Positions 5,472 through 38,294 of a stretch of DNA of 64,000 bases are shown here, in pieces. Each line of letters begins with the position of its first letter. Position 1 is the first letter of the stretch. Source of the stretch: Pseudoxanthomonas spadix (GTDB taxonomy: Bacteria; Pseudomonadota; Gammaproteobacteria; Xanthomonadales; Xanthomonadaceae); the NCBI RefSeq assembly GCF_003703395.1, contig NZ_RDQN01000001.1, positions 248,001-312,000 of the forward strand, read 5' to 3'. A program made the position numbers and the translations under genes. Below the pieces are notes generated by a model. That model made no database searches and was not told the origin of the DNA. It saw only the letters and a program-made list of their open reading frames with translations.

Positions 5472-6869
5472 ATGCAGATCACCCTGATCGGCGCCGGTTT
5501 CTGCGGCAGCACCCTGGCCGTGGAGCTGTTGCGCCAGGGCGGCCCGGACACGCGCGTGACCCTGGTCGGCCAGCCGGAGACCTTCGGCCGCGGCGTGGCC
5601 TACGGCGCGGCGCGGCCCGAACACCTGCTCAACGTGCGCGCCAAGGACCTGGGCGCCGATGCGGCGGTGCCCAGCGGCTTTGCCGACACCCTGGCGCTGG
5701 GCGAGCGCGGCCGTCTGGACTTCCTGCCGCGCCTTGCCTACGGGGAATACCTGCAGTCGCGCCTGCAGCAGGCCGCCGAAGCGGCCAGCGGCCTTGCCCG
5801 GATCGAGGAGGAAGCCGTCGCGGTGGACCGGGTGCCCGGTGGGTTCCAGGTGCTGCTGGCCAATGGCGAGGATTTCTTCAGCGAGGTGGTGGTGCTGGCG
5901 GTGGGCGCGCTGCCGCCGCAGCGCCTGGCCGGGGTCGGTCCGCGCCTGGCGGTGGACCGGCGCTACATCGGCTGGCCGTGGCAGGACGGGGCGATCGACA
6001 CGATCGCGCCGGAGGCGCGGCTGCTGATCGTCGGCGCCGGGCTGACCATGGCCGATGTCGCCGTGACCCTGCGCCAGCGCGGCCACCGCGGGCCGATCAC
6101 CGCGCTTTCGCGCCACGGCCTGGTGCCGCAGGCGCACCTGGAGGTGCCCGGCGCGCCGCTGGAGCTGCCGCCGGGCGTGCACCAGGCGCTGCGCGATCAC
6201 GACCTGCGCGGCCTGGTGCGCACCCTGCGCCAGCTGTCCACGGTGGTCGACGACTGGCGCCGGGTGGTCGATGCGCTGCGGCCACACCTGCAGCCGTTCT
6301 GGCGCGGCCTGGACCTGGCCACGCGCGCGCGCTTCCTGCGCCACCTGCGTTCGCACTGGGAAACCCTGCGCCATCGCCTCGCCCCGTCCGTGGCCGGGCA
6401 GCTGCAGGCCATGCAGGCGGCCGGTCAGCTGCGGGTGGTGGCCGGGCGCCTGCTGCGCGCGCGGGTGGGGGTGGGCGATGTGGAAGCGCTGATCCGCCCA
6501 CGTGGCGCCGACAGTGCCTGGCTGGGCCATTTCGACGTGATGATCCGCGCCACCGGGCTGGATACCGACATCGAGCGCAGCAGCCACCCGCTGGTGGCCA
6601 CGCTGCGCGATGCGGGCCTGATCGGCGCCGATCCGCTGGGCCTGGGTGTGGATGCCGATGCACACCTGCGGTTGCGCGATCGGTTCGGCAGCCCGGTCAC
6701 CGGCCTGTACTGCCTGGGCCCCTTGCTGCGCGGCCAGCTGTGGGAAATCACCGCCGTGCCCGAGTTGCGCGCCGCCGCCCGCGACCTGGCCAGGCGCCTG
6801 TTGTCGCAGCAGGCCGGTGCTGGGCGGGGCGCCGCCGACGCCGACGGCGATCTGCGCGAAGCCGGCTGA
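5472..6869 (+). CDS. FAD/NAD(P)-binding oxidoreductase of unknown substrate
   Basis: A 465-residue flavoprotein of the type annotated FAD/NAD(P)-binding (NAD_binding_9 family). The N terminus is a dinucleotide fold with GAGFCGST at residues 6-13. A second glycine-rich loop, VGAGLTMADV, lies near residue 188. The substrate is not evident. The start at 5472 is supported by the purine-rich GAGAGGAGAA just upstream; a longer in-frame start at 5415 would bury that Shine-Dalgarno sequence. It is flanked by kef on the same strand and a convergent DUF1244 gene, so context gives no functional clue. Confidence 0.8.
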   Translation: MQITLIGAGFCGSTLAVELLRQGGPDTRVTLVGQPETFGRGVAYGAARPEHLLNVRAKDLGADAAVPSGFADTLALGERGRLDFLPRLAYGEYLQSRLQQAAEAASGLARIEEEAVAVDRVPGGFQVLLANGEDFFSEVVVLAVGALPPQRLAGVGPRLAVDRRYIGWPWQDGAIDTIAPEARLLIVGAGLTMADVAVTLRQRGHRGPITALSRHGLVPQAHLEVPGAPLELPPGVHQALRDHDLRGLVRTLRQLSTVVDDWRRVVDALRPHLQPFWRGLDLATRARFLRHLRSHWETLRHRLAPSVAGQLQAMQAAGQLRVVAGRLLRARVGVGDVEALIRPRGADSAWLGHFDVMIRATGLDTDIERSSHPLVATLRDAGLIGADPLGLGVDADAHLRLRDRFGSPVTGLYCLGPLLRGQLWEITAVPELRAAARDLARRLLSQQAGAGRGAADADGDLREAG

Positions 6870-34554: not shown

Positions 34555-34629
34555 CGAAAACCTCAGGGTCGAAAACCTCAGCGAAAACCTCAGCGAAAAC
34601 CTCAGCGAAAACCTCAGCGAAAACCTCAG
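34555..34629 (+). repeat. 12-bp tandem repeat array (CGAAAACCTCAG)
   Basis: CGAAAACCTCAG occurs once at 34555-34566 and then five times in perfect tandem at 34570-34629. It begins where the second cassette's attC should be and shares the CCTCAG motif with the dispersed repeat that follows. No spacer sequences are present, so it is not CRISPR. Confidence 0.9.
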
Positions 34630-34665
34630 GGTCAAAGTACACTTTCCCTCTTCCCATCTCGGATA

Positions 34666-34825
34666 CCTCAGGGTCAGAGTGCACTTTCCCTTTTCTCATC
34701 TCTGGGAGCCAATCGAAGTCCCCGGATTCCCGCCTTCGCGGGAATGACGAATAAAGAGGGCGCTTTTGCTTTCAGCCGCTGTGAGTCTTTCGGGCCTCGA
34801 CCTTCTTCCCCGACTTCCCCACGTT
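34666..34825 (+). repeat. dispersed repeat unit 0 carrying the last bases of the LysR gene
   Basis: The unit begins CCTCAGGGTCAGAGTGCAC, passes through the hairpin ATTCCCGCCTTCGCGGGAAT (34727-34746), and continues into a copy of the LysR 3' terminus that includes GACCTTCTTCCCCGACTT. It leaves the LysR sequence near 34822. It is the shortest of four units with the same left end and different right ends. A partial start of another copy lies at 34624-34665. Confidence 0.75.
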
Positions 34826-35050
34826 CGCGGGAAAGCCCCGTCGCGGCGAGGCCCGCCGGCCGCGGCGGGGGCAGCGCCTACGGGCGCGCCGGGCACCGGT
34901 TGTAGGAGGCCCGCCCTCGGGCCGATGGCTTGGTTCGCCGGGAAAGCCCGATCGCGGCGGGAACGCCGCTCCTACAGGCGTATTGGGTTGGATAGGTTCT
35001 TGAACGGGTGCTATTGTTGGTCCTGTCTACAGAGCCTTGAGGATACCGGT
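34826..35050. repeat. REP-like palindrome cluster upstream of a toxin-antitoxin pair
   Basis: TGTAGGAGGCCCGCC with its complementary GGGCC (about 34899-34925) and an oppositely oriented copy ending GCCGCTCCTACAGG (34963-34978) form a REP/BIME-like pair. A degenerate third copy precedes them near 34850-34890. No gene is present. The remainder to 35050 must hold the promoter of the antitoxin gene, but no convincing hexamers stand out. Confidence 0.6.
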
Positions 35051-35320
35051 ATGGGCACCAAGTTCTCCGAGGACGTGATTCCGCTGACCGACCTGAAGGT
35101 CAACCCCGGCCGCGTCGTCAAGCATGCGGCGGACGCGCACCGCCCTGTGCTGCTCACCAGCCGCGGGCGCGGCGTGGCCGTGGTGCAGTCGATGCGCGAC
35201 TACGAGACGGCCGAAGAGGAACGCGCATTCATGCGGGCGGTCGTTGCCGGTCTCGCCGACCTCGAGGCGGGCCGGGAGCTGTCATTGGCGCAGGCCAAGG
35301 CGCGGCTCGGTTTGAAGTAG
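35051..35320 (+). CDS. Phd/YefM-type antitoxin
   Basis: An 89-residue antitoxin. It opens MGTKFSEDVIPLTDLKVNPG, continues VVKHAADAHRPVLLTSRGRG and VAVVQSMRDYE, which is the Phd/YefM fold used for DNA binding and dimerisation. The Lys/Leu-rich C terminus would bind the toxin. It starts at ATG 35051 behind GAGGAT. The toxin gene follows four bases later. Both genes have host-like high GC content, unlike the cassettes to the left. Confidence 0.88.
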   Translation: MGTKFSEDVIPLTDLKVNPGRVVKHAADAHRPVLLTSRGRGVAVVQSMRDYETAEEERAFMRAVVAGLADLEAGRELSLAQAKARLGLK

Positions 35321-35324
35321 CGGC

Positions 35325-35636
35325 GTGGCCAAGGTTGCCGTCCGGCTCGCCGAATCCGCGCTGGTCGATCCAGAGTCGATACGGGCGTGGTACGCCGAAC
35401 GGGGTGTGCCTGAAGTGGGCGAGCGCTTGCTCGGCGAAACCGTCACGCGCATCGAGGCACTCGCCGATCATCCGGACCTTGGGCGTATCGTCCCCGAGTT
35501 CGACCAGCCTTTTCTGCGCGAGCTGATCCGGCCACCGTTTCGCATCGTCTATCGGCGTGACCTGAAGCAGGTGCGCGTGGTTCGGGTCTGGCGCAATGAG
35601 CGCCTGCTCGACGTGCCAGACGAAGACGCACCATGA
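35325..35636 (+). CDS. RelE/ParE-type toxin
   Basis: A 103-residue toxin of the RelE/ParE fold. It opens with VAVRLAESALVDPESIRAWY, has the helix VGERLLGETVTRIEAL and the typical LGRIVPEF, LRELIRPPFRIVYRRD and VRVVRVWRNERL segments. Whether it cleaves mRNA or attacks gyrase is not evident. The start is GTG 35325, four bases after the antitoxin stop. It is the second plasmid-type addiction pair in the window and stabilises, or hitchhikes on, the repeat-rich block. Confidence 0.88.
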   Translation: MAKVAVRLAESALVDPESIRAWYAERGVPEVGERLLGETVTRIEALADHPDLGRIVPEFDQPFLRELIRPPFRIVYRRDLKQVRVVRVWRNERLLDVPDEDAP

Positions 35637-35660
35637 GCGATGAGCGTGGGCGATGCGATA

Positions 35661-35879
35661 CCTCAGGGTCAGAGTGCACTTTCCCTCTTCTCATCTCTGG
35701 GAGCCAATCGAAGTCCCTGGATTCCCGCCTTCGCGGGAATGACGAACAAATCGAAGTCCCTGGATTCCCGCCTTCGCGGGAATGACGAACAAGTCGAAGT
35801 CCCTGGATTCCCGCCTTCGCGGGAATGACGAAGAAATCGAAGTCCCTGGATTCCCGCCTTCGCGGGAATGACGAACAAA
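35661..35879 (+). repeat. dispersed repeat unit A head with four tandem 43-bp repeats
   Basis: The unit starts CCTCAGGGTCAGAGTGCAC at 35661. From 35708 a 43-bp segment beginning TCGAAGTCCCTGGATTCC is repeated four times with exact spacing (35708, 35751, 35794, 35837). Each repeat carries the hairpin ATTCCCGCCTTCGCGGGAAT. Units 0, B and C have this segment once, so unit A has been expanded. Confidence 0.92.
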
Positions 35880-35892
35880 GCGGGCGCTTTTG

Positions 35893-35976
35893 CCTTCAGC
35901 CGCTGTGAGTCTTTCTGGTGCCTTCAGCCGCTGCGAGTCTTTCTGGTGCCTTCAGCCGCTGGGAGACTTTTTGGAC
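35893..35976 (+). repeat. three tandem 28-bp repeats over the copied LysR stop codon
   Basis: CCTTCAGCCGCTGTGAGTCT plus eight bases is repeated at 35893, 35921 and 35949 with point differences. Read on the minus strand it encodes the last residues and stop of the LysR protein. The copy number is three here, two in unit B (36833-36888) and one in unit 0 and at the intact gene. Confidence 0.9.
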
Positions 35977-36724
35977 ACGAGCTTCTGCCCCGATTTGCGC
36001 ACCAGCCGCTCCGGCAATTCCTGCAGCGCAGCCACCATCCTCGCCAGCACCAGGTGGGCGGCGCGGCTGGGCTGGCGGCGCGGGGCGGTGCACACGGCCA
36101 GCTGCAGGGGGCGCGCCTGCCAGCCGTGCAGGGGGACGAAGGCCAGGGTGTCCTGTTCGACATCGTGGGCCACGTCCACCAGGCTCAGCACGCCCACGCC
36201 GCCGCCGGCGCGGATCAGCGAGCGGATCAGGCGGGTGTCGTTGCAGGTGGTGACCCGGCGCGGGTCCACGCCGTGGCGCAGGTACAGGCTGCGGGTGCGC
36301 TCCTCGATCACCAGCGGCGCGGCCGGCACCAGCAGGCGTTGGTCCAGCAGCCGGCTCATGGCCAGGGTCTTCTCGCCGGCCAGGGCGTGAGCGGGCGGCA
36401 GGACTGCGCCCACCGGCACCTCGATGGCCGCGCGCACTTCCAGGTTGCCGTGCTCGACCGGGTCCAGCAGCAGGCCGAAGTCGACTTCGGCCGCGGCCAC
36501 CAGCTCGCTGGCGATGCGGTTCTTGACCACGCGCAGGTCGAAGGAGAAGCCGGGATATTCGCAGGTCAGCTCGGCCAGCAGCTGCGGCACGAAGCCTTCG
36601 CTCAGGGCGTCGATCAGGGCGATGCTGACGTGGCCGCGGCGCAGCCCGCGCAGGTCGCCCACGCGCTCCAGCGTGCGGGTGTGTTCCTTGCGCCAGCGGG
36701 TGAGATCGTCCAGCAGCAGCTCGC
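35952..36724 (-). pseudogene. partial LysR copy A (3' three quarters, no helix-turn-helix)
   Basis: This is a near-identical copy of the LysR gene at 37283-38242. It runs from within LLLDDLTRWRKEHTRTLERV to a stop at 35952, and lacks the start codon and the DNA-binding helix-turn-helix. A few substitutions separate it from the intact gene, for instance AHLVLAR for AQLVLAR and DTLAF for GTLAF. The C terminus differs (KLVSKKSPSG). At its truncated end (about 36724) it joins GCGAACAGGGGTCAG, the head of unit B. It cannot make a functional regulator. Confidence 0.9.
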
Positions 36725-36726
36725 TA

Positions 36727-36888
36727 GCGAACAGGGGTCAGAGTGCACTTTCCCTCTTCTCATCTCTGGGAGCCAATCGAGGTCCCTGGATTCCCGCCTT
36801 CGCGGGAATGACGAACAAAGCGGGCGCTTTTGCTTTCAGCCGCTGTGAGTCTTTCTGGTGCCTTCAGCCGCTGGGAGACTTTCTGGAC
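36727..36888 (+). repeat. dispersed repeat unit B head
   Basis: The unit begins GCGAACAGGGGTCAGAGTGC, has one copy of the 43-bp hairpin segment, then two 28-bp repeats at 36833 and 36861. It runs directly into partial LysR copy B. The bases before 36727 belong to the truncated end of copy A. Confidence 0.88.
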
Positions 36889-37174
36889 CCGAGCTTCTGC
36901 CCCGATTTGCGCACCAGCCGCTCCGGCAATTCCTGCAGCGCAGCCACCATCCTCGCCAGCACCAGCTGGGCGGCGCGGCTGGGCTGGCGGCGCGGGGCGG
37001 TGCACACGGCCAGCTGCAGGGGGCGCGCCTGCCAGCCGTGCAGGGGGACGAAGGCCAGGGTGCCCTGTTCGACATCGTGGGCCACGTCCACCAGGCTCAG
37101 TACGCCCACGCCGCCGCCGGCGCGGATCAGCGAGCGGATCAGGCGGGTGTCGTTGCAGGTGGTGACCCGGCGCG
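36864..37174 (-). pseudogene. partial LysR copy B (3' third only)
   Basis: The copy covers the LysR region from RRVTTCNDTRLIRSLIRAGG to the stop at 36864. It ends at its other side (37174) directly against CGAACAGGGGTCAG, the head of unit C. It carries the QKLGSRKSPSG C terminus, close to that of copy A. The truncation point differs from that of copy A, while the repeat-side end is the same. No function is expected. Confidence 0.9.
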
Positions 37175-37282
37175 CGAACAGGGGTCAGAGTGCACTTTCC
37201 CTCTTCTCATCTCTGGGAGCCAATCGAAGTCCCTGGATTCCCGCCTTCGCGGGAATGACGAACAAAGAGGGCGCTTTTGCTT
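37174..37282 (+). repeat. dispersed repeat unit C head next to the intact LysR gene
   Basis: GCGAACAGGGGTCAGAGTGC starts at 37174 and is followed by one 43-bp hairpin segment and the GAGGGCGCTTTTGC linker. It ends at the stop codon of the intact LysR gene. This is probably the ancestral junction from which the other units were copied. Confidence 0.85.
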
Positions 37283-38242
37283 TCAGCCGCTGTGAGTCTT
37301 TCTGGCCGCGACCTTCTTCCCCGACTTCCCCACCAGCCGCTCCGGCAATTCCTGCAGCGCAGCCACCATCCTCGCCAGCACCAGCTGGGCGGCACGGCTG
37401 GGCTGGCGGCGCGGGGCGGTGCACACGGCCAGCTGCAGGGGGCGCGCCTGCCAGCCGTGCAGGGGGACGAAGGCCAGGGTGCCCTGTTCGACATCGTGGG
37501 CCACGTCCACCAGGCTCAGCACGCCCACGCCGCCGCCGGCGCGGATCAGCGAGCGGATCAGGCGGGTGTCGTTGCAGGTGGTGACCCGGCGCGGGTCCAC
37601 GCCGTGGCGCAGGTACAGGCTGCGGGTGCGCTCCTCGATCACCAGCGGCGCGGCCGGCACCAGCAGGCGTTGGTCCAGCAGCCGGCTCATGGCCAGGGTC
37701 TTCTCGCCGGCCAGGGCGTGAGCGGGCGGCAGGACCGCGCCCACCGGCACCTCGATGGCCGCGCGCACTTCCAGGTTGCCATGCTCGACCGGGTCCAGCA
37801 GCAGGCCGAAGTCGACTTCGGCCGCGGCCACCAGTTCGCTGGCGATGCGGTTCTTGACCACGCGCAGGTCGAAGGAGAAGCCGGGATATTCGCAGGTCAG
37901 CTCGGCCAGCAGCTGCGGCACGAAGCCTTCGCTCAGGGCGTCGATCAGGGCGATGCTGACGTGGCCGCGGCGCAGCCCGCGCAGGTCGCCCACGCGCTCC
38001 AGCGTGCGGGCGTGTTCCTTGCGCCAGCGGGTGAGATCGTCCAGCAGCAGCTCGCCGGCGGTGGTGAGCTTCATGCCGGTGGGCAGGCGTTCGAACAACT
38101 CGGTTTCCAGCTGCTGCTCGGCGCCCTGGATCTGCCGATGGATCGCCGAAGCCGAGACATGCAGCACCTCGGCGGCCTTGCGCAGGTTGCCCTGGGCGGC
38201 GACCTCGATGAAGTAGCTGGCGAAACGGGAGAAGGGCAGCAT
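37283..38242 (-). CDS. LysR-family regulator, probable controller of the purine/Rieske cluster
   Basis: A 319-residue LysR-type regulator. The N-terminal winged helix-turn-helix contains NLRKAAEVLHVSASAIHRQI (residues 19-38). The effector domain spans about 95-300. I chose the ATG at 38242, because the 13 residues before it in frame are not family-like. It is divergent from the Rieske oxygenase gene, and a perfect inverted repeat lies between them. That is the usual LysR layout and suggests it activates the cluster to its right in response to a purine intermediate. The 3' end has been copied repeatedly to its left. It may correspond to HpxR, but that is inferred from context. Confidence 0.88.
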   Translation of the reverse strand: MLPFSRFASYFIEVAAQGNLRKAAEVLHVSASAIHRQIQGAEQQLETELFERLPTGMKLTTAGELLLDDLTRWRKEHARTLERVGDLRGLRRGHVSIALIDALSEGFVPQLLAELTCEYPGFSFDLRVVKNRIASELVAAAEVDFGLLLDPVEHGNLEVRAAIEVPVGAVLPPAHALAGEKTLAMSRLLDQRLLVPAAPLVIEERTRSLYLRHGVDPRRVTTCNDTRLIRSLIRAGGGVGVLSLVDVAHDVEQGTLAFVPLHGWQARPLQLAVCTAPRRQPSRAAQLVLARMVAALQELPERLVGKSGKKVAARKTHSG

Positions 38243-38260
38243 GGCCTGGCCTGTTCTGTT

Positions 38261-38294
38261 TTTTGCAACGGGGAGCTGCAAAATCTCTTATAGA
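38261..38294 (+). promoter_or_regulatory. candidate LysR operator and promoter between regulator and Rieske gene
   Basis: TTTTGCA (38261-38267) and TGCAAAA (38277-38283) form a perfect inverted repeat with a nine-base spacer, which contains the T-N11-A pattern of LysR sites. TATAGA at 38289-38294 could be the -10 of the rightward promoter. The site begins 18 bases from the LysR start codon, so it could serve autorepression as well. Confidence 0.65.

Follow-up and report, generated by a model that had tools for sequence, protein, structure and literature searches.

Nested 3'-end copies of a LysR-family gene in Pseudoxanthomonas spadix headed by a putative terminal inverted repeat of a Y1 (HUH) transposase

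A stretch of 64,000 nucleotides from the genome of Pseudoxanthomonas spadix (contig NZ_RDQN01000001.1, positions 248,001 to 312,000; hereinafter referred to as the window) contained a complete LysR-family regulator gene on the minus strand, and to its left an array of partial copies of the 3' end of this gene. The array comprised four units in the same direction (A to D), with a common left end and different right stops inside the LysR gene, in agreement with a preliminary description of the window that had reported four nested units with one fixed end. Each unit was headed by a terminal inverted repeat (TIR) or a TIR-like sequence. The features, in window positions, are as follows.

34555..34617, plus strand: micro-copies read from the sequence (repeat family), one of 15 nt (CGAAAACCTCAGGGT) and four of 12 nt (CGAAAACCTCAG), the TIR itself being truncated
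34618..34659, plus strand: unit A0 (repeat family), 42 nt, degenerate TIR GGTCAAAGTACACTTTCC and CTCTTCCCATCT, adjoining unit A
34662..34822, plus strand: unit A, TIR-like head, hairpin segment and about 50 bp of the LysR 3' end, followed by unrelated sequence
35657..36724, plus strand: unit B, TIR-like head, hairpin segment in tandem and LysR 3' region to the D-equivalent position 38055
35952..36662, minus strand: open frame in unit B, LysR effector-binding domain without the helix-turn-helix (HTH) domain (LysR_substrate only, E 1.9e-33)
36725-36727: three extra nucleotides (TAG) between unit B and the TIR of unit C
36728..37174, plus strand: unit C, TIR, hairpin segment and LysR 3' region to the D-equivalent position 37593
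37175-38281, plus strand: unit D, with the complete gene
37175..37200, plus strand: TIR of unit D, CGAACAGGGGTCAGAGTGCACTTTCC, with its outer edge taken from a logo of 121 heads in relatives
37237..37256, plus strand: hairpin ATTCCCGCCTTCGCGGGAAT inside the unit
37283..38242, minus strand: LysR-family regulator, complete, the source gene (HTH_1 and LysR_substrate domains)
35051-35317: Phd/YefM antitoxin gene, between units A and B
35325-35633: ParE-like toxin gene, between units A and B

The ends of units A, B and C (34822, 36724 and 37174) corresponded to positions 37333, 38055 and 37593 of unit D, respectively, and GGGTCAGAGTGCACTTTCCC was located at 34671, 35666, 36735 and 37182. The two truncated ends previously said to abut the next unit did so. 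At the C-D joint, CCCGGCGCG was followed by CGAACAGGGG with zero extra bases, where the parent goes on with GGTCC; at the B-C joint, CAGCTCGC was followed by the three extra bases TAG and then CGAACAGGGG, where the parent goes on with CGGCGG. Units A and B, separated by about 830 bp (34823-35654) that hold the Phd/YefM and ParE-like pair, started alike at GATACC, and these leftmost units carried the prefix GATACCTCAGGG where the others have RAAACMGGGG. The micro-copies and unit A0, whose TIR core showed two mismatches to the 18-nt core described below, formed a miniature leftward extension of the array with a related start. Unit lengths spanned 12 nt to about 1.07 kb.

The hairpin segment and LysR 3' end earlier regarded as common to the units were present in all of A to D, but the LysR 3' ends were not uniform: A and D had one version and B and C the other, and relatives resembled A and D. 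The ATTCCCGCCTTCGCGGGAAT hairpin was dispersed over the genome, and its copy in the LysR unit was predicted to fold; among the units, the 43-bp segment carrying it was in tandem in unit B alone (35700-35880). The effector-domain frame of unit B stays open and might be expressed. Near-identity of the copies, and hence their recent origin, had also been proposed and was supported here. Unit A was 96.7% identical to D over 152 bp, and the LysR coding parts differed at 2 of 260 bases between C and D, 7 of 722 between B and D, and 3 of 260 between B and C. The copies are considered recent because they are about 1% apart, compared with 84-86% identity over the locus in two relatives with a TIR-like head (see below).

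Alignment of 121 distinct heads from relatives identified the common end of the units as the TIR RAAACMGGGGTCAGAGTGCACTTTCC. Its outer edge was at RAAAC, and zero conserved bases were found beyond either end of the TIR; the fixed end thus lies 7 nt further out than the GGGTC at which it had been placed before. These heads were picked by an 18-nt core, so that conservation of the core is a selection effect, and the independent evidence in the logo consists of the outer eight positions (RAAACMGG) together with the non-conservation beyond both ends. No GTAG foot was present in the TIR. The exact core, the repeat head for which a genome search had been advised, occurred in the 3.37-Mb genome only in the LysR array (four matches) and on another contig, C25, beside a Y1/HUH transposase gene (three matches). 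With up to two mismatches there were 13 matches and none to the reversed control. The eight with at most one mismatch comprised four in the LysR array and four around the Y1 gene of C25, the fourth of the latter being inverted, with one mismatch, and beyond the 5' end of the gene; of the five with two mismatches, one was in the LysR array and four were elsewhere. A chance repeat was rejected, GGGGTCAGAGTGCACTTTCC giving eight matches in the genome at up to one mismatch and zero in the reversed control. Two short inverted TIR pairs were also observed in the genome (C21:87712-87794 and C24:11575-11657); these are REPIN-like dimers of a GTCGAC subtype, with a core unlike that of the TIR in the LysR array.

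The genome contained seven matches to Pfam Y1_Tnp. None was in the window, which agrees with the earlier statement that no transposase is encoded there. The C25 transposase matched Y1_Tnp at 53.9 bits (cut-off, 23), and its open reading frame of about 236 amino acids carried the motifs NHVH (HUH) and YIELNP (YxxxNP). A C-terminal extension was present, for which a Pfam search for HTH domains at E 1e-3 gave no match. The gene was flanked by three direct TIRs on its 3' side and one inverted TIR on its 5' side, each with GGGGTCAG. Ahead of the complete gene were two truncated copies of the transposase 3' end, each headed by a TIR, 201 and 481 bp in length and 98.0 and 97.5% identical, with the joints AGCGCC followed by GAAACAGGGG and GCGACC followed by GAAATAGGGG. 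The order of the three transposase copies was poorly supported, with conflicting single-base readings. The shared head of the LysR units appears to be the TIR of the TIR-associated Y1 (HUH) transposase encoded on C25, and, since nested copies are found both at the LysR array and at the C25 gene, the LysR array would seem to be a single case of a TIR-tied process.

The TIR was present in 41 of 297 genomes of a family sample, and a shorter pattern in 99 of 395, while a stricter pattern in a class-wide sample of 369 genomes matched only the P. spadix genome (G000) and G010, both of the family. Exact 25-mers in named genomes gave 14 matching stretches, one of which came from an unclassified gammaproteobacterial metagenome-assembled genome; the other 13 were from genera that we take to belong to the same order. 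Adjacent direct repeats were then sought without using TIR positions in the window and in 93 TIR-bearing loci out of a collection of 256, overlapping or short match loci being left out. The pairs counted measured at least 50 bp, were at least 85% identical, did not overlap and lay no more than 12 nt apart, which excludes units A and B and the interrupted copies at L062. Of 13 pairs obtained, 10 started within 5 nt of the TIR outer edge in both copies. They came from six genomes (P. spadix, G297, G015, G021, G029 and G033) of five genera, and one of them (L244, 77 bp) has a run of N within it. Of the other three, one was the window's hairpin tandem and two were L061 pairs with N at the join. 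The L061 repeats (5870-6480), which are exact and in tandem and measure 98 and 213 bp, each have one N at the join and resemble scaffolding artefacts. When the overlapping loci L032, L050 and L089, which held 0 of the 13 pairs, were dropped from the site count, 91 sequences with 656,125 bases and 438 sites remained. The chance of a TIR-edge start was 0.0073 per pair (438 TIR-like sites in 656 kb) and the binomial probability 1e-19, figures that count same-array pairs although these are not independent and that do not extend to whole genomes, because the loci were chosen for holding TIRs.

The duplicated DNA included the transposase itself in P. spadix, and in G015 it lay near a Y1 gene. Duplicated neighbours named by eye included, at L064, the 5' end of an RHH-like gene and, at L238 in a genome of the same genus, the 3' end of an SDR-like gene. 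More nested copies, in an interrupted array, were found in the single-contig genome G252 (L062). Alignment of copies gave 17 matches, some very short or reciprocal, among which we relied on those of LysR, C25, L038, L041 (the same place as L064), L062 and L098 (the same place as L244). No conserved motif was recognized by eye across the joints at the variable end of the copies (hereinafter X), and this candidate was rejected. In the four joints without extra bases, the parent sequence past X shared 0, 1, 2 and 2 bases with the TIR start. In L038 alone, the extra bases (CAG) were identical to the trinucleotide that borders the leftmost TIR on its left side. Among 465 sites of a looser pattern there were 84 short stutters (12-60 nt), and a strict stutter pattern had 13 matches in 8 of 398 genomes of the order, with none in the reversed control.

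This LysR gene was detected at E<=1e-60 in 6 of 38 genomes of the genus, P. spadix included. A degenerate TIR-like head was present at its 3' end in G309 and G313, whose LysR locus was 84-86% identical to that of P. spadix, and was not seen there in G308, G315 and G316. In the single-contig genome G309, the full gene was accompanied, at a distance of about 5 kb, by a partial LysR copy that ended at an inverted TIR-like sequence. This copy was 90.7% identical to the full gene of G309 and 82% to the P. spadix sequence, and thus arose separately. At L082:6230-6950 of G309, the partial LysR was located between two inward-facing TIR-like sequences of different subtype, as a TIR-bounded unit with a piece of a host gene inside.

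These arrays indicate that duplications of DNA inward of the TIR start at the TIR outer edge and stop at X without an evident motif, and that the copies lie immediately outside the TIR of the parent and share its orientation, with a transposase gene and unrelated host genes both involved. Our preferred explanation, to which we assign a probability of about 0.58, is that nicking occurs at the outer edge of the TIR, which is then joined to a downstream end of variable position; the resulting tandem duplications would be fixed at one end and free at the other. The transposase would cut single-stranded DNA at the TIR outer edge, with the flank receiving the 3'-OH and the TIR the 5'-phosphotyrosine; left-end cleavage in IS608 divides these two groups between flank and element in the same way. 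A further, illegitimate cut, made in the sister strand, might supply the 3'-OH at the non-specific position X, which might alternatively derive from repair synthesis primed by the flank. Passing the 3'-OH at X to the 5' end of the TIR would create an X-TIR joint and a tandem duplication, and repeated rounds would yield nested arrays, down to TIR stutters of about 12 nt. We infer this chemistry from the geometry of the copies, which is read directly from the sequences.

Several points weigh against this explanation. Cleavage of the TIR by the C25 transposase is itself something that we infer, and the biochemistry of transposases of subclass 2.1 (see below) was not encountered in the articles consulted. 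Y1 genes were found in six of six relatives checked, and their presence alone therefore says little. The TIR alone folded at -0.7 kcal/mol (z +1.17), i.e., it had no stable hairpin, unlike REP (repetitive extragenic palindromic) and IS608 ends. The fixed end of units A and B is less clean because of the GATACCTCAGGG prefix, unit A is not adjacent to unit B, and several joints other than the four above carry 1-5 extra bases. Unit B lies left of C though it is longer, and the 3' end of B and C is absent from D; hence at least one extra step, either gene conversion or copying from B, is needed. The two-ended unit of G309 is not predicted by the simple model. In addition, the lack of ectopic copies is based on a subset of first-look candidates: among those scored, 40 of 380 for LysR and 40 of 181 for the transposase, whole-genome DNA searches detected copies only in the respective own array. 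Weaker matches in both searches were the dispersed hairpin, TIRs and distant Y1 genes.

The main rival is fork stalling with template switching, in which replication is blocked by the TIR or a protein bound to it and synthesis of the nascent strand starts anew from the TIR edge; transposase chemistry would play no part. The finding of copies in P. spadix only locally and in direct orientation suits this scheme, the extra bases at some joints fit end-joining, and the hairpin in the LysR unit folds. However, this hairpin was not seen in the other arrays read, and the scheme requires one breakpoint always at the TIR outer edge with the other free, whereas stalling is not expected to halt at one exact base. 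We regard it as unlikely.

The second rival is one-ended transposition, in which a Y1 system would behave as IS91/IS801 or Helitrons do: a single-stranded circle from the TIR to X would be excised, or made by copying, and would then integrate at a different TIR, at its outer edge. It predicts an identical X-TIR joint, and the partial copy of G309, about 5 kb off and with TIR-like ends on both sides, is in its favor; a fixed end with a variable end is described for IS801 and Helraiser in the accessible parts of the respective articles (PMC3189936, PMC4778049). Yet among the 40 candidates scored for each, neither LysR nor the transposase had a partial copy at an ectopic site in P. spadix, and the scheme must further assume that TIR edges are preferred as targets. 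This route is rather improbable. The preliminary description had likened the fixed and variable ends to one-ended rolling-circle or REP-transposase events. The view of a fixed and a variable end was supported, as was the second option as far as a REP-type (RAYT-like) transposase in trans is concerned, given the TIRs and self-copies at C25; strict one-ended rolling-circle transposition was not, the copies being found only in arrays.

Duplication independent of the TIR, by unequal crossing-over, slippage or microhomology, is very improbable. Recombination comes easily to tandem arrays, unit B offers an ordinary case in its 43-bp hairpin tandem, and the 3' ends of B and C suggest conversion, but 10 of the 13 adjacent repeats begin at the TIR edge. 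Simple crossing-over at flanking homologies, considered earlier as a possible explanation of the unit ends, is not supported, given the 0-2 bases shared at four joints and the 1-5 extra bases elsewhere. The least credible explanation is an assembly artefact: although the P. spadix genome is a 26-contig draft and N occurred at the join in the two L061 pairs and as a run in L244 among the 13 pairs, the copies differ by about 1-3%, the same architecture recurs in G252 (L062), and a separate partial copy is present in G309, both of these genomes being single-contig.

The structure is real and repeated, and is tied by sequence to a known, little-studied kind of transposase. Clusters of REP and TIR repeats are known from many bacteria, and the TIR arrays link cluster growth to an exact repeat edge, with the same process duplicating pieces of host genes nearby. 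If the transposase acts in this way at a single end, it would duplicate DNA locally and supply gene fragments, such as a LysR effector domain without its DNA-binding part. A wider generalization, offered tentatively and at somewhat less than even odds, is that this Y1 subclass would be a site-specific generator of tandem duplications, with a single TIR as start and any downstream single-stranded end as stop. If true, such a generator would produce in-place copies of neighbouring host genes and, by stuttering, give rise to TIR clusters; gene fragments would thus be amplified in a way that is neither transposition nor recombination nor slippage. No account of this TIR-edge mode was found in a literature search that had most subscription articles outside its reach.

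Among known systems, IS608 and the IS200/IS605 family share a catalytic domain of the same superfamily, and IS608-type cleavage polarity would give the X-TIR joint; they differ in that no conserved flanking tetranucleotide is present here. The RAYT- or IS200-like transposase in trans for which a search had been advised was matched by the Y1/HUH gene on C25, but this gene scored below both NCBIfam cut-offs. Membership in IS200/IS605 was rejected (NF033573, 21.1 bits; cut-off, 55), as was membership in RAYT/REPtron (REP_Tyr_transpos, 70.5 bits; cut-off, 80), GTAG-tagged hairpins being absent. The REPtron and REPIN-RAYT systems nevertheless have a related transposase and, according to the available text, tandem clusters that take in flanking DNA (PMC3116915, PMC8266576); tandem REPIN clusters are said there to point to a second cluster-forming mechanism (PMC3116915). 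In the arrays described here, by contrast, there is no GTAG foot or stable hairpin, the fixed boundary is the repeat outer edge, and units range from 12 nt to about 1.07 kb.

IS91/IS801 elements and Helitrons, in the portions of the articles at hand (PMC3189936, PMC4778049), likewise combine a fixed origin end with a variable terminator end and capture adjacent gene fragments. Their products land at new sites and they use other HUH transposases, whereas copies were found here only locally. Y2_Tnp (IS91/ISCR) gave no match in the P. spadix genome and none in the 14 control genomes either, which leaves this search uninformative as to an IS91-type transposase.

The C25 transposase fits the TIRYT/TIRtron kind, as judged from its motifs and TIRs. 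In the accessible sections of the original accounts, TIRs of this kind carry a GGGGWSAS motif (PMC3733652) and are found as singles, dimers and groups (PMC3733652, PMC6006769); members of subclass 2.1 have NHVH, YIELNP and a median length of 238 amino acids (PMC6006769), and the C-terminal HTH-like domain is given as Bac_DnaA_C, HTH_23 or HTH_28. The C25 transposase likewise is a Y1/HUH protein with YxxxNP, has about 236 amino acids against this median of 238, and is flanked by inverted GGGGWSAS TIRs. What those sections describe are TIR families and clusters, whereas the arrays reported here consist of duplications that run from the TIR edge with variable reach into host genes.

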